DNA of 64,000 bases from a virus: IMG/VR virus record IMGVR_UViG_3300012931_000759, positions 248,001 to 312,000 of that record. One strand, 5' to 3'. A program made the translations under genes and the position numbers. The notes beneath the pieces were generated by a model. That model ran no database searches, was not told the DNA's origin, and worked only from the letters and a program-made list of their open reading frames with translations. How positions within the stretch are numbered: position 1 is the first letter of the stretch; every line of letters starts with the position of its first letter. Positions 2 to 64,000 of the stretch are shown in pieces.

Positions 2-1327
2 GGCATAGCGGTGAGCCAGATCCAGGCTGCGAGCCAGCCGCTGGCCATCTTTGGAACCAAAATCACCGAAGCACAGAGCATCTGGACGACATTCACGAAA
101 TCCCTGAAGGGCATCGCGCCGGAGGAGGTTGGCAGCCTCACGCGGCAGATTACCAGCAACATCGCAACCATGAGTCTTGGCGCGCAGGGTTTTGTGGCGC
201 AGATGAGCGGCATGGTCCATGGCGTGACCGCGCTCGGGGGTGCGCTGCGGATGGAGCTGGCGATGCGCGAGCCTGGCGGCATGGAGCGCAACCTCGAGCG
301 CGTCATGCAAACCATCTCGCGCATGGGCGGCGGGCGCATCATAACGCTCCAGGAGGCGTCCCAGACTCCGGCGCTAGAGATGCAGTTCCAGCTCCAGCGG
401 CAGATGGTCGGGCAGATGCTCGGGGTCCAGCAGGGTCCCCAACAGTCCCGCGTGCTGGAAGTGCTCCAGAACATGGAGAAGGGCGGGGCCTCCGGAGCAG
501 AAGCCACCAAAAATGTCCAGGAGCTGATGGCCGACGGGCAGAAGGCCCAGTCCGCGAGCACCACTGCCATGGAGAAGACGGCTATGGGCATCACCCGGAC
601 CAACTCTTTCCTACACGAGATTGTCGGCCTGGAGCAGACCGCCGGTCGCGAATTGGCCCAAATCGGGCGCGCGCTCGGCACCGCCGGGGTCGGCATGCGC
701 CCGAGGGAAAGCGATGTCGCGCGCGCCACGCTGGCGGGCATGCGGGCAGGCCCGGCGGTCGCTGCGGCCGCTCCGCGCGCTTTGGAGCGCATGGGCGGCC
801 TGGTCCGCACTGTTAGTAAAGGCGCCGAAAGAGGCTCGAAGGCCTTCGTCCTCGAGCGGCAATTCCGGGCAAAAATGACGCCGACAGGCGAGCCCATCGA
901 CCCCAGGCATCCCGAGCAGGCCGAGGCCGAACGCGGACTGGCAACAGTGCTGCCCACGGCCACCGGCAGGCGCCCGGAACTTGCGCCTGGTCTGCCCGTG
1001 TCCACCGGCAGGCGCCTGGAACTCGCGCCTGGGCCGCGCGAGAGGCGGGACAGGTTGGCGCGGACAGTGATGCCATTCGGGTTCGACCGCCCGGAGGAGA
1101 TGGCTCCAATGGGGCCCGACGAGACGGCGCCGGGGCGACCGGGCGCAAGGCGAGGTGCGGCGGCCATGGCGGCGGAGGGTGAGAGGCCAGAGGCCCTGAC
1201 GGTCACCCCTCTCGAGCCGCCCACTGTGGAGATCAAGGTCATATGTGAGAAGTGCCTCGAGAAGATCGTGGACAAGAAGCTACACCTTGGCAACCAGGGC
1301 GCGGCAGGCGAGGACTACGCCAGATAG
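2..1327 (+). CDS. Probable C-terminal part of tail tape-measure-like protein (5' end outside window)
   Basis: The frame is open to the left edge. A GTG at 11 exists, but no ribosome-binding site precedes it, so the gene probably starts before the window. The first 250 or so residues are Met/Gln/Ala/Gly-rich and helical-looking (LQRQMVGQMLG, TLAGMRAGPAVAAAAP), as in tape-measure and tail-chaperone-associated proteins. Residues 300-400 are Pro/Arg/Gly-rich, low in complexity, and contain a tandem repeat. The C-terminal end has a CEKC pair. The position directly upstream of tail and baseplate genes supports a tail role. The tape-measure assignment is an inference from composition and context; no catalytic motif is visible. 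Confidence 0.5.
   Translation, partial: GIAVSQIQAASQPLAIFGTKITEAQSIWTTFTKSLKGIAPEEVGSLTRQITSNIATMSLGAQGFVAQMSGMVHGVTALGGALRMELAMREPGGMERNLERVMQTISRMGGGRIITLQEASQTPALEMQFQLQRQMVGQMLGVQQGPQQSRVLEVLQNMEKGGASGAEATKNVQELMADGQKAQSASTTAMEKTAMGITRTNSFLHEIVGLEQTAGRELAQIGRALGTAGVGMRPRESDVARATLAGMRAGPAVAAAAPRALERMGGLVRTVSKGAERGSKAFVLERQFRAKMTPTGEPIDPRHPEQAEAERGLATVLPTATGRRPELAPGLPVSTGRRLELAPGPRERRDRLARTVMPFGFDRPEEMAPMGPDETAPGRPGARRGAAAMAAEGERPEALTVTPLEPPTVEIKVICEKCLEKIVDKKLHLGNQGAAGEDYAR
952..1035 (+). repeat. Two-copy tandem 42-bp repeat inside the first gene
   Basis: Units 952-993 and 994-1035 are near-identical and in frame. They encode two 14-residue copies built around TGRRPELAPG / TGRRLELAPG within the Pro/Arg-rich tail of the protein. 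The few differences are single-base substitutions, which suggests duplication followed by drift. Confidence 0.75.
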
Positions 1328-28404: not shown

Positions 28405-29337
28405 ATGGATTTTGTGGTAATGTTCGACAAGAAATTTATGGTCGAGGGTCTTGTCTGCGTGTCTTCGATACTTGAGTATGGGCCGGACGCAAAGGTGTTC
28501 GTCCTATGCTTAGACCAGGAAGTGGACAAAATTGTCCAGCGGCATCTGTCGTCCGATCGCGTCGTTTGCATCCAACTCCTGGAGCTGGAGTACAAATACC
28601 CGGCCATAGCGGCCACCAAACCGTCAAGGCCGTGGGCTCCTTACACCCAGTCGCTGAAGCCCTTCCTGCCCGAGTACATCTTCAATACCCACGGAACCAA
28701 GGCGTTAACATACGTCGATTCGGACATGCTGTTCTGGGGCGATTGTAGTGAAATCGATCGCGAGATGGGTGACTGCTCCTTCATGGTGACCTCTAGGGGG
28801 CAGGACCCCCCTCCGGACTACGGGTATTTCAACGGGGGTTGCTTCTCTTGCCGCGACGACCGGAACTGCCGCTTGTTCCTAACCTGGTGGCAGGATCGGT
28901 GTGTGGAATGGTGCCTGTGGCAGACTGGCCCTAACGGAGCGTTTGGCGAGGAGGGGTACTTGAACATCATTGTTACTGAGCCGAATAGGTTTGGTGGCAT
29001 ACACGTGTCGAGGCATCCCGGCATTAATCTTGCTCCTTGGAACGTAAAAATGCATAAGCTTGAGAGTTGGAACGGAGGTTTTGTGGTAGATGGCCATTTC
29101 CCGCTAGTATGCTACCATTATCAGGGATTCGGCGGTATCAAATTTCCTTCCGCGATGCCGGTGGATATGATGTTCAAGAAACTCACTGCCCTATATGCCC
29201 CGTACCGCGACAAGCTGTCCGCTACAACCAAGGTGACGGCAGCCGTCCTGCCTCCGGAAAACATGGCACTCGATGGGCGGAAGATTTACCAGGAAGGCGG
29301 TGTTTACAGGAAAAGGATGAGGGCCAACCTCCTGTAA
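28405..29337 (+). CDS. GT8-like glycosyltransferase, first of three paralogues
   Basis: A 310-residue protein with a GT-A fold: N-terminal MDFVVMFDKKFM, then a strand VFVLCLDQEV, and the metal-binding DxD in YVDSDMLFWG near residue 103. Later marks are YFNGGCFSCRDD, a WW pair, EEGYLNII, GINLAPWN and the family CYHYQGF motif. These are shared with the genes at 35941 and 36783. It would transfer a sugar from a nucleotide donor. The ATG at 28405 is preferred since the paralogues begin with the same MDF; an upstream in-frame ATG overlaps the previous gene. The C-terminus is 25-30 residues longer than in the paralogues. Confidence 0.75.
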   Translation: MDFVVMFDKKFMVEGLVCVSSILEYGPDAKVFVLCLDQEVDKIVQRHLSSDRVVCIQLLELEYKYPAIAATKPSRPWAPYTQSLKPFLPEYIFNTHGTKALTYVDSDMLFWGDCSEIDREMGDCSFMVTSRGQDPPPDYGYFNGGCFSCRDDRNCRLFLTWWQDRCVEWCLWQTGPNGAFGEEGYLNIIVTEPNRFGGIHVSRHPGINLAPWNVKMHKLESWNGGFVVDGHFPLVCYHYQGFGGIKFPSAMPVDMMFKKLTALYAPYRDKLSATTKVTAAVLPPENMALDGRKIYQEGGVYRKRMRANLL

Positions 29338-58623: not shown

Positions 58624-58911
58624 ATGCCGATATATGACTACATTTGCGAGGAATGCGGCCACGTCTTCGAGGAGTTTGCGCGTATCACGGATCCTCCGAT
58701 TAATAAATGTCCGGCCTGCGGCCTAACGGGACGCGTATGTCGCCTAATCTCGAGCGGCACAGTTGGCACAGTAGAGATGAACGGTCGGGAGTACTTCAAT
58801 CGTGTCTTAGAACCGGAGGCCAAGCGGATCGCCGAGAAGATTAAGCACGGGGATGATGCCGCAATCGCTGATGTTTTTGGCGAGGGCCCTCCTGCAAAAA
58901 AAGTCGGTTGA
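58624..58911 (+). CDS. FmdB-type zinc-ribbon protein
   Basis: 95 residues. The N-terminus MPIYDYICEECGHVFEEFA with CPACG downstream is the FmdB/CxxC-CxxC putative regulatory family. The C-terminal half is a charged helix. Cellular relatives are of unclear role. It is the last gene of the replication operon; its TGA lies inside the promoter of the next unit. Confidence 0.75.
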   Translation: MPIYDYICEECGHVFEEFARITDPPINKCPACGLTGRVCRLISSGTVGTVEMNGREYFNRVLEPEAKRIAEKIKHGDDAAIADVFGEGPPAKKVG

Positions 58912-58936
58912 ATTCCGGCTGCCCTGTGCGTATAAT
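58908..58936 (+). promoter_or_regulatory. Sigma-70-like promoter of the prkA unit
   Basis: TTGAAT (58908-58913), a 17-base spacer and a perfect TATAAT (58931-58936) precede the prkA ATG by 70 bases. It is the best promoter seen in the window and overlaps the end of the FmdB-like gene. It suggests that host RNA polymerase reads the prkA-yhbH-spoVR genes as a separate unit. Confidence 0.6.
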
Positions 58937-59006
58937 CTCTTTAAACAGGGGAAGGATTGCGTCCCGCTCCGGCCAAAGGCCGGGAAAAACCGCGAAAGGA
59001 TGGAGC

Positions 59007-62000
59007 ATGGAAGTGATCAACACCGGCAAAAAGGGCAAGAAGACCAAGGATCAGGAAGAGACGGCGGAGAACGGGGCGCTCGACCTTGTTGCCCTCATTG
59101 AGCAATGTGCGGCCGAAGAGGATCTTGAGCCATGGGAGGGCACGCTTCGCGATTATCTCCCGATGGTACAGGATGATTGTACACTGGCGGACACGGCCCA
59201 CGCAAGGCTGTGGCGCATGATTGAGACAGTCGGCATCAAGTTCGACGACAAGGATGAGCGGAAAGAGCATCCCGAGTACAGCTTTTTCACCAACGAGTTG
59301 TTCGGCATCAATGACACGCTGGCCAGCGTCATGGAATATCTCAGGGCTGCCGCAGCTGGATCCGACGTCGCCCGGCGAATCCTGCTCCTATACGGGCCCA
59401 CGAGTTCCGGTAAATCGCAGTTCGCAATCCTCCTTAAGGAGGGTCTGGAGAAGTTCTCGCGCACCAAGGCCGGGCGCATGTTTGCCCTCAAAGATTGCCC
59501 GATGCACGAGAACCCCTTGAACGCGGTGCCCAAGGCTGCGAGGGAGCAATTGAAGGCTAAGTATGGCCTCAATATTGAAGGTGACTTGTGTCCGCGCTGT
59601 GCCTACAGGCTCAAGACCGAGTTCAACGGCGACTTCATGGCTCTGCCGGTCGAGCGCGTGCTCCTGTCCGAGGCCAACCGAGTGGGTATCGGCACGTTCC
59701 AGCCGGCCGATCCCAAGTCGCAGAACCAGTCCGAGCTGACGGGCTCCGTCAACTTCGCCAAGCTGGCCGAGCTGGGCTCGGAGTCGCACCCGCTGGCTTT
59801 CGACTTCAACGGCGAGCTGAACAAGGCCAACCGCGGCATGATGGAGTTCATCGAGCTCCTGAAGGTGGACCGCAAGTTCAGGCACATCCTCCTGACGCTG
59901 GCGCAGGAGAAGCGCATCAAGGCACAGAATTTTCCGCTCATTTTCGCGGACCTAGTAGTAATCAGCCATAGCGTGTCTGGCGATATGCCTGTTCCCTATA
60001 GAGAGAATGGGTTGGTTCGATTTACCACAATGAGGCAACTGTGTGATGCCAACAACACCAACATCGAGGTTCTTGCTGCCGATGCCAATGGCAAGCCCGC
60101 ATGGACGAAAGTGAAAGGATTCTATCGTCACCAGTTCTCTGGCAAAATGGTGAAGACCGTACAGGTTGATGGTGTTGTCAACACTACTTGGCATCATTCT
60201 TTGATTGGCAAGGCGGACAATGCGCCTTTTCTGCCCGAAACGCTTCAAGATGTCCTGGCATTCAGGAATGTTCCTGAACAAACCGAACTTGGGACATTCG
60301 ATGTTCCGGTTCCCGATTCGTTGTCCTATTTACCCGTTAATACCCCAGGTATCTTGTCCACGGATTGCTGTGTTCCCGAGCAATCCTTTGCTCGTGTTAA
60401 ACCAACTGGCAACAAGAAAAGTGATGGAGAATACGGCAAATATTGGATCAAAACTCGCTACGATTCTTGTTCCGAGGAAGCGAAAGACATTGTTGCTCTT
60501 CTGTGTTGGTATGCTACAGAGGGTCATGTCTCGAATGAGCATGCGATCATTTCCCAAGCCAACCTGGAAACTCTATTTTCCCTGAAGAAGAGAGCGGAGA
60601 GGGTTTCTTCAGCCATAGGGTCTGTGTTTGATCGATCGGATGAGGAGGATCACACTAGCCGCCTTCACCTTTCGGCAAGGGTGTGGCGGGAAATTCTTGA
60701 GCACAATTGCGGAAGATATAGCGAAAACAAGCGTTTGCCAGATTTTGTGTTCAATTTGCCTCGTGAGTTGCGTGAATTCGCTTTACGAGAACTCATAAAG
60801 GGAGATGGTCAGACTATGCCATCGTTCGCATCCTGCGAGGAATATGCCAAAAAGTACTTTGCCTTCAAAACGACAAGCATTATTCTGGCAGCCCAATTCT
60901 GCTATTTGGCAAGTTCGCTTGGGTACGATTTTGGCGTACATCATGGATATACGAAAAAGGGAAAGGATTTCTTTGGCATCAATTATCGGGAACGAACGAA
61001 GCCCATACTAAGGAAAAACAGGATCGAGACCGTTGAGGTGTCCGACAGCGAAGTATTCGATATCGAATGCGTGGACAATCATTCTTTTGTGGCTGGCGTT
61101 GGCAACCTTGTTTGCCACAATACGAATGAGACCGAGTACCTCAAGTTCCTCGCCCAGAAGGAGGAGGAAGCGCTCCACGACCGCCTGTGGGTCATCAAGT
61201 TCCCCTACAACCTGCGCCTCGAGGACGAGATCAAGATCTACGAGAAGCTCATTTCCAGGGCGGCCGGGTTCCAAGGTATCCACATCGCGCCACACACCCT
61301 GCGCGTGGCGGCGATGTTCGCCATCCTGAGCAGGCTGGAGGAGTCCAAGGACCAGAAGTTCACCCTGCTGACCAAGATGCGCCTGTACAACGGCGAGAAG
61401 GTCGACGGGGCCGGCAAGGAGGACGAGAAGAGGCTGCGCGAGGCTGCCGAGCGCGAGGGCATGGACGGCATCAGCCCCCGCTACATCGTGAACCGCATCT
61501 CGGCCTGCTTCACCAAGCACGGTCGGACCTACATCACCCCGATGGACATCGTCCGCAGCATCAAGGAGGGGTTCTCCACCAACGCCAAGCTGTCGAAAGA
61601 GGACATCTCGCGGTTCGAGAACATTATCACGACGGTGATGGAGGAGTACAACAAGATCGCAACAAACGAGGTTCAGAAGGCTTTCTTCCTGAATTTCGAG
61701 CACGAGATCAAGGATCTGCTCAATAACTACATCGACAACGTTGGTGCCTATCTGGACGATGACAAGATCCAAAACCACTGGGGCGAAATGGAGGAGCCGA
61801 ACCACCGCCTCATGAGGAGTGTCGAGGAGAAAATTGGCATCACCGACGGCGGCAAGGATGCTTTCCGCCAAGAGGTGTACCGCAAGATGATCAAGAGCAA
61901 GAGCGAGACGGGCGACTACGACTACCAGAACCATCCGCGCCTGAAGGAGGCGCTACAGAAGCAGTTGTTCGAGGAGCGCAGCGACATCATCAGGCTGACG

Positions 62001-62144
62001 GTGTCCGTGCGGAATCCTGATGCCGATGCGCTCAAGCGGCTGAACGAGGTCATCAAGACCTTGAGCGAAAAATGCGGTTACACTCCGGAGAGCGCCAATG
62101 ATTTGCTGCGTTATGTCAGCAGCATATTGGCGAAAAACAGCTAG
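59007..62144 (+). CDS. prkA: PrkA-type AAA+ serine protein kinase, interrupted in frame by an intein
   Basis: 1045 residues as translated, 661 after removal of the intein, close to cellular PrkA/YeaG (630-645). The ATG at 59007 has AAAGGA upstream; an in-frame TTG at 58908 belongs to the promoter. Walker A is YGPTSSGKSQFAILL at residues 129-143; the PrkA zinc-like motif CPMHENPL with CPRCAYRL follows; NKANRGMMEFIELLK is kept. The extein joins as VISH to TNETEYLKFLA, equal to the HSNESE region of cellular PrkA. The kinase-like part (FSTNAKLSKEDISRFENI and on) is present. Cellular PrkA acts with YhbH and SpoVR in stress or sporulation. Confidence 0.9.
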   Translation: MEVINTGKKGKKTKDQEETAENGALDLVALIEQCAAEEDLEPWEGTLRDYLPMVQDDCTLADTAHARLWRMIETVGIKFDDKDERKEHPEYSFFTNELFGINDTLASVMEYLRAAAAGSDVARRILLLYGPTSSGKSQFAILLKEGLEKFSRTKAGRMFALKDCPMHENPLNAVPKAAREQLKAKYGLNIEGDLCPRCAYRLKTEFNGDFMALPVERVLLSEANRVGIGTFQPADPKSQNQSELTGSVNFAKLAELGSESHPLAFDFNGELNKANRGMMEFIELLKVDRKFRHILLTLAQEKRIKAQNFPLIFADLVVISHSVSGDMPVPYRENGLVRFTTMRQLCDANNTNIEVLAADANGKPAWTKVKGFYRHQFSGKMVKTVQVDGVVNTTWHHSLIGKADNAPFLPETLQDVLAFRNVPEQTELGTFDVPVPDSLSYLPVNTPGILSTDCCVPEQSFARVKPTGNKKSDGEYGKYWIKTRYDSCSEEAKDIVALLCWYATEGHVSNEHAIISQANLETLFSLKKRAERVSSAIGSVFDRSDEEDHTSRLHLSARVWREILEHNCGRYSENKRLPDFVFNLPRELREFALRELIKGDGQTMPSFASCEEYAKKYFAFKTTSIILAAQFCYLASSLGYDFGVHHGYTKKGKDFFGINYRERTKPILRKNRIETVEVSDSEVFDIECVDNHSFVAGVGNLVCHNTNETEYLKFLAQKEEEALHDRLWVIKFPYNLRLEDEIKIYEKLISRAAGFQGIHIAPHTLRVAAMFAILSRLEESKDQKFTLLTKMRLYNGEKVDGAGKEDEKRLREAAEREGMDGISPRYIVNRISACFTKHGRTYITPMDIVRSIKEGFSTNAKLSKEDISRFENIITTVMEEYNKIATNEVQKAFFLNFEHEIKDLLNNYIDNVGAYLDDDKIQNHWGEMEEPNHRLMRSVEEKIGITDGGKDAFRQEVYRKMIKSKSETGDYDYQNHPRLKEALQKQLFEERSDIIRLTVSVRNPDADALKRLNEVIKTLSEKCGYTPESANDLLRYVSSILAKNS
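59970..61121 (+). mobile_element. Intein with LAGLIDADG endonuclease inside PrkA
   Basis: 384 codons. Block A begins with Ser1 (SVSGDMPVPY); block B is NTTWHHSLIG; the two DOD endonuclease helices are IVALLCWYATEGHV and FALRELIKGDGQT; block F is EVFDIECVDNHSFVAG; block G is VGNLVCHN, followed by Thr+1. All splicing residues (Ser1, block B His, His-Asn, Thr+1) are present, so splicing and homing should both work. Base composition is distinctly more AT-rich than in the exteins. It sits at the sensor-1 strand of the AAA+ core, a typical conserved-site insertion. Confidence 0.93.
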
Positions 62145-62726
62145 ATGGCCAATGAGATTTGTGCCAGATGCGGCAGACCGAGAAAAGTGGCCGAAAGAAC
62201 GCCAGATGGTCCAATTTGCCACAACTGCTACAAAAAAGAGCACATTGAGCCATGCCGGTTCTGTGGGAAACAGAAAGCAGTTGCTGCCCGAGATGATAAC
62301 GGCGCGGCCATCTGCGACAACTGTAACAAAGAACACAACAAATGTTCGTGTTACGTGTGCCATGAAGTTAGACAAGTTCGTGCGCGTGCGGAAAACGGAC
62401 AGCCACTGTGTCTTGCTTGTCATCGTTTGACTAATCTTGGACAGTTTTTCGCATCGTACAAGAGAGGAGCCAGCCTGCGCGGTCATATATTCGAACTCAC
62501 GTTGGATGAGTTTGAACAATTGGTGCGCAGGCCATGCTGGTACTGTGGACGCTACAACCGGGGAGAAATTTTCAGCGGCGTGGACAGAATCGACAGTTCA
62601 TGCGGCTATGTTCGAACCAATGTGCTACCGTGCTGCGGCGAGTGTAACCTGATGAAAGGTTCCTTGTCCAAGGACGCGTTCCTTGCTAGCATTGTGCGCA
62701 TAGCCAGACATTTGGAAAACAAATGA
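62145..62726 (+). CDS. Free-standing HNH homing endonuclease with zinc-knuckle array
   Basis: 193 residues. Knuckles ICARCG, ICHNC, CRFCG, ICDNC, CYVCH and CLACH span residues 4-90; the HNH core is RRPCWYCGRYNRGEIFSGVD, SCGYVRTNVLPCCGECN, LMKGSL. The layout matches the gene at 2177, and the core that at 38299. It begins with the base after the prkA stop and overlaps yhbH by ATGA, so the triad remains one transcription unit. AT-rich relative to the neighbours. Confidence 0.88.
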   Translation: MANEICARCGRPRKVAERTPDGPICHNCYKKEHIEPCRFCGKQKAVAARDDNGAAICDNCNKEHNKCSCYVCHEVRQVRARAENGQPLCLACHRLTNLGQFFASYKRGASLRGHIFELTLDEFEQLVRRPCWYCGRYNRGEIFSGVDRIDSSCGYVRTNVLPCCGECNLMKGSLSKDAFLASIVRIARHLENK

Positions 62727-63892
62727 ACGACTCCTACAAGGACATCTGGGAACTCCGACAGCCCGGTCGACGCGACTCAGAACGCCATAAGGTGCGTATC
62801 AGAAAGGCTATCAAGGAGAACCTACGGGAGCTGATCGCGGAGGAGAATATCATCTCCTCCGACGGCAAACGCAAGGTCAAGGTTCCGGTGCGCTACCTTG
62901 ATATGTGGCGATTTAAATTCGGTCCTAATTCTAAGTCCAAGGATGTTGGTCATGGCGAAGGTGATCCTGGCGACATCATTGCCAAGGAAGGCAAGGGGAA
63001 AGGTAATAAGGCAGGTGACCAGCCGGGTGAGGAGTTGTACGACGAGGAGGTCGAACTAGCCGAAATCGTGGACATGATGCTGGAAGACCTCGGCCTCCCA
63101 TGGTTAAAGCGGAAAGAGAATCAGGTCGAGATCGAGACAGAAGAGATGGTTTTCCACGACATCGCCGAGAAGGGTCTTCCCCCGAACGTCGACCTGAAGC
63201 GGACACTCATCGAGAACCTGAAGCGGAACTCTATCGCCGGGAAGCCCTCGTTCGGCAAGATTGTGCCGGACGATCTGCGGTACAGGGTGTGGGAGAATGT
63301 GGTAGAGAAGCACTCTAACGCATCTGTAATCCTAATCATGGACCGCTCCGGGAGCATGACGGACGATAAAAAGTATATCGTGAAGTCTTTCTTCTTCTGG
63401 ATGGTTAGTTTCCTGCGCATGAAATACGGGAATGTGGAGGTCGTCTTCATCGCGCACGACACCGAGGCCAGGGAGGTGGGGGAGGAGAACTTCTTTGCCA
63501 TCTCTGATGGGGGAGGCACGCGCATCAGTTCCGGGCTGGAGCTGGCCAAGACGATCATCGAGACTAGGTTCCCCACAAACATCTGGAATAACTACGTCTT
63601 CTCGTTCTCGGACGGCGAGAATTGGGATACGGACAACGAGCGCTGTATAGCCATGTTCAGAGAGTTACTTGGGATGTGCCAGGCGGTTGGATATGGGGAG
63701 GTGTCGTATACCGATCAGTTCTACAGCTGGTCCTCGTGGCGCGGCCACTGGTCGACCCTCCACGATGCCATTAAGGAGGCGGACGACCTAGTTGGGGAAC
63801 CGAGATTCCTACAGGCGGCAATCGTGAAGCGCGAGGACCTATACGACTGCCTGCGTCAGTTTCTGGATGTCGACGGGAAGGAGAAGCCATGA
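62723..63892 (+). CDS. yhbH: YhbH/YeaH (DUF444) protein with VWA-type domain
   Basis: 389 residues, close to Bacillus YhbH (392). The N-terminal basic segment RDSERHKVRIRKAIKENLRE, the KVPVRYLDMWRFKFG segment and the Gly/Lys linker of the family are seen. The VWA-like domain (about 200-370) has the MIDAS motif VILIMDRSGSMTDDKK, then FIAHDTEAREV, and ISDGGGTRISSGLELA with SFSDGENWDTDN. In cellular genomes it is encoded with PrkA and SpoVR and is thought to act with them. Its stop overlaps the SpoVR start (ATGA). Confidence 0.9.
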   Translation: MNDSYKDIWELRQPGRRDSERHKVRIRKAIKENLRELIAEENIISSDGKRKVKVPVRYLDMWRFKFGPNSKSKDVGHGEGDPGDIIAKEGKGKGNKAGDQPGEELYDEEVELAEIVDMMLEDLGLPWLKRKENQVEIETEEMVFHDIAEKGLPPNVDLKRTLIENLKRNSIAGKPSFGKIVPDDLRYRVWENVVEKHSNASVILIMDRSGSMTDDKKYIVKSFFFWMVSFLRMKYGNVEVVFIAHDTEAREVGEENFFAISDGGGTRISSGLELAKTIIETRFPTNIWNNYVFSFSDGENWDTDNERCIAMFRELLGMCQAVGYGEVSYTDQFYSWSSWRGHWSTLHDAIKEADDLVGEPRFLQAAIVKREDLYDCLRQFLDVDGKEKP

Positions 63893-64000
63893 GGGACAGT
63901 CGCATCGTTGACTTGGAGCAGCTGGCGCGCAAGAACGGGCTCGATTTTTTCCCGGTGGTATTCGAGGTCGTAAGCGAGAATACGATGAACAACGTGTGCG
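63889..64000 (+). CDS. spoVR: SpoVR-family protein, N-terminal fragment (continues beyond window)
   Basis: 37 codons remain before the edge. The start MRDSRIVDLEQLARKNGLDF then FPVVFEVVSENTMNNVC matches the N-terminus of SpoVR/YcgB, whose members open with a helix and GLDFYPxxFEVV. The ATG overlaps the yhbH stop. The gene order kinase, YhbH, SpoVR supports the call; the main part of the protein has to be read outside the window. Confidence 0.8.
   Translation, partial: MRDSRIVDLEQLARKNGLDFFPVVFEVVSENTMNNVC

Follow-up and report, generated by a model that had tools for sequence, protein, structure and literature searches.

Gene content of the prkA-yhbH-spoVR locus

The stretch of DNA analyzed here (the window, 64 kb) runs from position 248001 to position 312000 of a virus record with a length of 340,392 bases; the virus, a jumbo phage, is referred to below as the reference phage. 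At the end of the window a predicted promoter is followed, all on one strand, by prkA, an HNH gene, yhbH and spoVR, with the three families adjacent (Table 1). Profile matches confirm the gene identities and the cellular order proposed in an earlier note on this DNA. The promoter described in that note is present; the 64 kb contain no other match to TTGANN-(16..18)-TATAAT, against a chance expectation of 0.05 as estimated by shuffling. The reading frame that enters the last bases of the window continues, as anticipated, into a complete SpoVR gene matching PF04293.

Table 1. Features of the triad locus in the reference phage. Positions are those of the window; coordinates prefixed L002 are those of locus L002.
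Feature	Position	Strand	Basis and remarks
Predicted sigma-70-like promoter, TTGAAT-17-TATAAT	58908..58936	+	sequence match
prkA with in-frame predicted intein	59007..62144	+	PF08298 AAA_PrkA and PF06798 PrkA_C; predicted mature protein 661 aa
PrkA N-extein, up to ...VVISH	59007..59969	+	Walker A GPTSSGKS, Walker B GMMEFIE; GC3 0.79
Predicted intein, 384 aa	59970..61121	+	Ser1, block B, LAGLIDADG-type blocks, VCHN, +1 Thr; GC3 0.49
PrkA C-extein, TNETEY sensor 1 onward and C-terminal domain	61122..62144	+	GC3 0.87
Zinc-finger/HNH (endonuclease VII-like) gene, free-standing	62145..62726	+	phrog_1035, phrog_3118; GC3 0.53
yhbH (DUF444 VWA protein)	62723..63892	+	PF04285, TIGR02877, intact MIDAS
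spoVR start	63889..64000	+	gene runs to record position 313358 (L002:11889-13358), 489 aa
YpsA-like SLOG protein	L002:13370-13930		weak, below Pfam cut-off; between spoVR and sigma factor
Sigma-70-family factor, regions 2 and 4	L002:13923-14567		two genes downstream of spoVR
B12-dependent ribonucleotide reductase, two LAGLIDADG inteins	L002:14577-18983 (record 314577-318983)		TIGR02504; downstream of spoVR

Directly upstream of the promoter are genes for a helicase, a helicase loader, a DnaB-like helicase and a small zinc-ribbon protein. Since a DnaB-like helicase and its loader lie upstream, baseplate genes occur within the same 64-kb window as the triad and a ribonucleotide reductase lies downstream, we conclude that the locus is part of the phage record and is neither host DNA nor a chimera. 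The earlier note had named these two as outcomes that would undo its reading; phage genes surround the triad and the motifs are intact. The sigma-70-family factor near spoVR could drive transcription in its region of the genome. With LAGLIDADG matches in the reductase and in further large ORFs, the phage seems to be rich in inteins.

An intein at the ATPase center of phage PrkA

The prkA reading frame in the mechanically produced list starts at position 58908, an in-frame TTG in the -35 box that is unlikely to be the start of prkA. The likely start is the ATG at 59007, which is preceded by AAAGGATGGAG. The listed ORF of 1078 aa is about 400 aa longer than intact phage relatives, which are mostly 640-690 aa, and its AAA_PrkA domain is interrupted at about residue 357 of the ORF and resumes at about residue 734. 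Excision of residues 355-738 rebuilds the conserved VVISH-TNETEY, placing the insertion exactly at AAA+ sensor 1 (VVISH|TNE), and from its first residue onward the C-extein aligns with the chain of PDB 9xip from residue 355 (TNE). The insert begins with Ser1, contains TTWH (block B) and the LAGLIDADG-type motifs LLCWYATEGHV and LIKGDGQ, and ends in VCHN followed by a +1 Thr. It is thus, by its anatomy, a predicted LAGLIDADG-type intein with every splicing residue present, and the listed ORF would encode a mature PrkA of the length given in Table 1.

The predicted intein resembles the endonuclease PI-PkoII (E=3e-9, pairwise). Pfam Intein_splicing and LAGLIDADG profiles gave no match in the prkA insert at 1e-3, and the assignment therefore rests on the anatomy and on the allelic relatives described below. 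PADLOC models gave homing-endonuclease hits only, all inside the intein, and YhbH and SpoVR were without match. No close intein relatives were found in IMG/VR with either the phage intein alone or a two-intein alignment as query. The GC3 of the intein is lower than that of both exteins, suggesting that the intein came in after prkA itself. A text search for intein and PrkA within a limited literature collection found no paper on bacterial PrkA, and the predicted intein in PrkA appears to be undescribed before.

According to the earlier note, only a homing endonuclease separates the three genes. An HNH gene does lie between prkA and yhbH, but prkA itself is split by the intein, which the note had missed. 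The GC3 of the HNH gene is low like that of the intein, and several related copies of this gene family are found elsewhere in the phage contig. LAGLIDADG matches were also detected in three more large ORFs of 1366, 955 and 1421 aa (record positions 112359, 150819 and 165083-167278, respectively).

Phage PrkA matches PF08298 (E=4e-101) and PF06798 (E=6e-68). With the intein left in, it scored 233.6 bits against the NCBIfam equivalog PRK15455 and missed the cut-off of 576. After intein removal, Walker A (G130-x-x-x-x-G-K136-S137), the Walker B residues E280/E283, the sensor-1 asparagine N323 and the conserved arginine R342 are all intact. A MoxR-type AAA+ domain was not found in phage PrkA; AAA_PrkA alone was matched. 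The kinase on which the earlier note centered its mechanism is doubtful as a basis, given that PrkA purified from Bacillus anthracis behaves as an AAA+ protein whose kinase and protease activities are negligible (PMC13001217). For the cellular proteins serine kinase activity is disputed, as it has been reported for Escherichia coli YeaG (cited in PMC4664914).

Inteins in bacterial PrkA

In Ktedonobacterales, a PrkA match was found in 44 of 47 genomes, in 12 of these 44 within ORFs of 1020-1514 aa; genome G034 provides a thirteenth, partial case. In a first sample of Acidobacteriota, inteins were identified in four of the 43 genomes with a PrkA match. Three intein sites can be distinguished in PrkA: SDPK|C..HN|SQ; EMLK|C..HN|CDEKF, just past Walker B; and SH|S..HN|TNE at sensor 1. 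The phage intein occupies the third. The prkA genes of loci L173-L186 and L191, from Ktedonobacterales and Acidobacteriota, have inteins at the other two sites, with two inteins in each prkA of L176 and L186. Long Acidobacteriota prkA ORFs of 958 and 819 aa were considered as intein carriers and rejected as over-extended frames with no insert.

Two Acidobacteriota genomes, G116 and G383 (loci L187 and L198), have an intein at precisely the sensor-1 position of the phage. Over their full length these inteins share 36% and 34% identity, respectively, with the phage intein, and the exteins of the phage and the two Acidobacteriota PrkA share 38%, a divergence about equal to that of the inteins. 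Such similar divergence points to an old allelic family, not to a recent transfer among these genes. Weaker relatives of the phage intein were seen in what by eye appear to be genes of gyrase B (L199) and topoisomerase VI B (L200, L201).

PrkA thus joins the list of intein hosts as a recurrent one, with three positions around the ATPase center occupied in bacteria and phage. The clustering of inserts around this center points to ATPase activity as the conserved core of PrkA.

YhbH and SpoVR

Phage YhbH matches TIGR02877 (E=2e-119) and PF04285 (307 bits, above cut-off). Its 399.2 bits miss the cut-off of 467.95 bits of the spore_yhbH equivalog TIGR02877, so that it is assigned as a member of the family only. 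The MIDAS is complete (D207-x-S209-x-S211, T266, D297). Matches of YhbH to pentatricopeptide structures in the PDB were discarded as artefacts of a 30-residue stretch.

The start of spoVR at 63889 overlaps the yhbH stop by four bases (ATGA). SpoVR covers positions 13-401 of the 407 in PF04293 (E=3e-112, 371.8 bits). Across 63 phage and bacterial sequences, H97-x3-H101-x-D103, E142, D146, E250 and H257 are invariant, and these histidine, glutamate and aspartate residues suggest that SpoVR holds a metal site. The pLDDT of the AlphaFold model was 76 and then 87 with the 63 sequences; no fold match to the predicted model was found in the PDB at E<=0.001, so that SpoVR was not placed in any enzyme class and the weak top hits were set aside.

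Distribution of the triad in phages

A scan of IMG/VR with the phage SpoVR as query returned 168 relatives, and the best 80 of the 168 loci were inspected; the counts are not dereplicated. All three genes are present in 77 of these best 80 loci, in the order yhbH-spoVR-prkA in 71 and prkA-yhbH-spoVR in six. The other three have spoVR alone, and two of these stop shortly past spoVR, where a neighbor could be missing. Records in the phage collection that contain relatives of YhbH, PrkA and SpoVR at once number 11 for Thermus phages and four for uncultured huge phages. In phiYS40, MN1 and phiLo the triad genes lie next or almost next to one another and have been annotated in part. The full triad is thus not new, as the earlier note had supposed it might be: it is already annotated in phiYS40 and relatives and is present in most of the best 80 of 168 IMG/VR contigs. 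In an oxygen-minimum-zone virome, spoVR was the most abundant of the sporulation-related genes (PMC8940887). The phage-borne triad is therefore common and already known, and the novelty lies in the added sensor-1 intein and in the wider occurrence of PrkA inteins.

Several carriers are evidently phages: the contigs L007/L009 and L015 encode terminase, portal or baseplate proteins. The triad has a terminase or portal gene as neighbor in L007/L009, a baseplate gene in L015 and a terminase gene in phiYS40. In L015, a phage contig of 158 kb, it sits amid baseplate and tail genes on the opposite strand. Six phage loci of marine type (L043, L080, L036, L052, L050 and L060) encode RelA/SpoT-like HD proteins a few genes away from the triad. 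A stress-gene neighborhood of marine triad loci, suggested by genes of chaperonin and RelA/SpoT-like appearance, was considered and rejected: the members checked had no Pfam match, and the HD protein occurs in no more than six of the 80 loci.

Origin of the triad

Of the two nearest bacterial relatives, the triad in an Acidobacteriota groundwater MAG (L085) has the same gene order and matches at 50%, 46% and 50% for prkA, yhbH and spoVR, respectively. In the other, a second groundwater bacterium (L086), prkA and spoVR were matched and yhbH was not found on the locus. The flanks of both, judged by eye from ORF starts, are ordinary chromosomal genes. In all three trees the reference phage gene joins L085/L086 with support of 100/99 (for yhbH, L085 only). 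A single phage clade is rejected for prkA (AU p=2.7e-6), spoVR (2.1e-5) and yhbH (0.009), and one clade of the reference phage with the marine phages is also rejected in the three trees (AU p of 6.9e-5, 0.002 and 0.007). The Thermus copies have long branches and their own placement is unsure. Rejection of the one-clade topologies indicates that separate phage lineages took up the whole triad independently; the trees thus argue that the whole triad is a repeated capture by phages, several times over, which marks it as one selected unit. The branch of the phage PrkA is 1.31 long vs 0.34-0.39 for L085/L086, and its function may have drifted.

Possible functions of the triad

In Rhizobium etli, prkA, the VWA gene and spoVR form one operon, verified by RT-PCR, and prkA is the top (p)ppGpp-induced gene (PMC3188799). 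In nitrogen-starved E. coli, YeaG and YeaH jointly brake metabolism (PMC10954441, PMC4664914). The connection to starvation made in the earlier note thus holds for the cellular genes, prkA/yeaG and yhbH/yeaH being tied to starvation and (p)ppGpp (PMC3188799, PMC4664914, PMC10954441). What counts against a starvation role is that deletion of prkA in R. etli gave no clear stress phenotype (PMC3188799). For the sporulation role also put forward, no support was found; the bacterial copies closest to those of the phage come from groundwater organisms, and marine contigs are numerous among the carriers.

The intact motifs of PrkA and MIDAS of YhbH, the invariant residues of SpoVR and the cellular precedent lead us to read the phage unit as a putative AAA+/VWA remodeling machine with SpoVR. 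A functional triad is further supported by the predicted promoter of its own and by three full-length genes with conserved catalytic or metal residues. The genes present and their order, the intact motifs, the inheritance as a block, the repeated capture and the anatomy of the intein are established by the sequences. We see about an even chance that the full cellular operon, captured as a block by the jumbo phage, was kept functional as a remodeling machine that tunes the starved host. In this scenario, prkA-yhbH-spoVR would have been taken from a bacterium related to the two groundwater genomes (one of them labeled Acidobacteriota). A selfish intein would later have entered the ATPase center of prkA, and the HNH gene would have entered behind it. 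Once expressed and self-spliced, PrkA would form an AAA+ ATPase, for which YhbH, a VWA protein with a MIDAS, would serve as adaptor and SpoVR as third partner, and this machine may remodel target proteins of the host. The cellular pair being a starvation brake, the phage's own supply would most likely keep slow-growing or starved hosts supportive of a long infection. The suggestion in the earlier note that the host is held in a state useful for infection may hold in this form, with a role in virion assembly as its main live rival.

That rival would make PrkA-YhbH a machine like the MoxR AAA+/vWA chaperone pairs, which would help to fold or process the structural proteins of the phage, while SpoVR would be a partner contributing a metal site. 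Group 2.2 jumbo phages have MoxR-vWA pairs for which a virion-assembly role has been proposed, and tail assembly of an archaeal virus is reported to need a MoxR-vWA system (PMC7824862). The terminase, portal and baseplate neighbors in L007/L009, L015 and phiYS40 and the invariant histidine, glutamate and aspartate residues of SpoVR are also in its favor. In the reference phage, however, the triad sits with a helicase, a sigma factor and a ribonucleotide reductase and not with virion genes, PrkA matches AAA_PrkA and not MoxR, and the cellular copies function without any virion. We regard this role as possible but unlikely.

Another reading makes the triad an anti-dormancy or counter-defense device that overrides toxin-antitoxin systems or starvation shutdown, either directly or as a dominant-negative copy. 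It could draw on the repression of mqsRA and dinJ-yafQ by yeaG in nitrogen-starved E. coli (PMC4664914) and on an HD_4 (RelA/SpoT-like HD) protein encoded elsewhere in the same phage. We find it rather improbable: in cells the module deepens quiescence and does not relieve it (PMC10954441), YhbH and SpoVR lack a defense-family match among PADLOC models, and the full set of catalytic residues is preserved, which makes a dominant-negative copy unlikely. The HD_4 protein itself (L196:1000-2049, match at record 28910-29269) has a hydrophobic N-terminal half.

More improbable still is a growth-state controller imposing a starvation-like pause that still allows phage production, in which the sensor-1 intein would keep the AAA+ motor off until spliced and so couple activation to conditions in the infected cell. 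Although the closest relatives of the triad genes are bacterial, functionless passenger host DNA or a chimeric assembly can be set aside as highly implausible, since the triad is flanked on either side by phage genes in one strand, has diverged by about 50% from its nearest bacterial relative, retains intact motifs in three genes and recurs in cultured phages and many contigs.

Repeated capture of the whole triad by unrelated phages implies that the action of the triad is useful within one infection, and this narrows the possible functions for the decades-old question of what PrkA, YhbH and SpoVR do in cells.

Comparison with known systems

Cellular operons of R. etli, E. coli (yeaG-yeaH plus ycgB) and B. 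subtilis (prkA-yhbH and spoVR) consist of the families found in the phage, and in Acidobacteriota L085/L138 the order equals that of the phage. Unlike the phage triad, the cellular copies serve starvation and sporulation and have no phage genes around them. The bacterial PrkA inteins of Ktedonobacterales and Acidobacteriota are, like that of the phage, in-frame near the ATPase center, but most of them are at the two other sites. The jumbo-phage MoxR pairs (PMC7824862) likewise combine an AAA+ with a VWA protein; they differ in having MoxR instead of PrkA, a peptidase-fused VWA partner and no SpoVR.

Among phages, Ralstonia jumbo phage RsoM2USA encodes SpoVR (ORF28) and PrkA (ORF30) as separate genes two ORFs apart (PMC8504454); no triad was named there and the best hits are proteobacterial. 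The closest parallel is with Thermus phages phiYS40, TMA, YS40_Isch, phiLo, MN1 and Lalka, tailed phages that, like the reference phage, have all three genes together, labeled as conserved bacterial protein, SpoVR and serine kinase. Their copies share 23-37% identity with those of the reference phage, have no intein and stand apart in the trees, and the order in phiYS40, MN1 and phiLo is yhbH-spoVR-prkA, unlike prkA-yhbH-spoVR in the reference phage. As cultured phages that carry the triad, they offer experimental systems in which it can be deleted.
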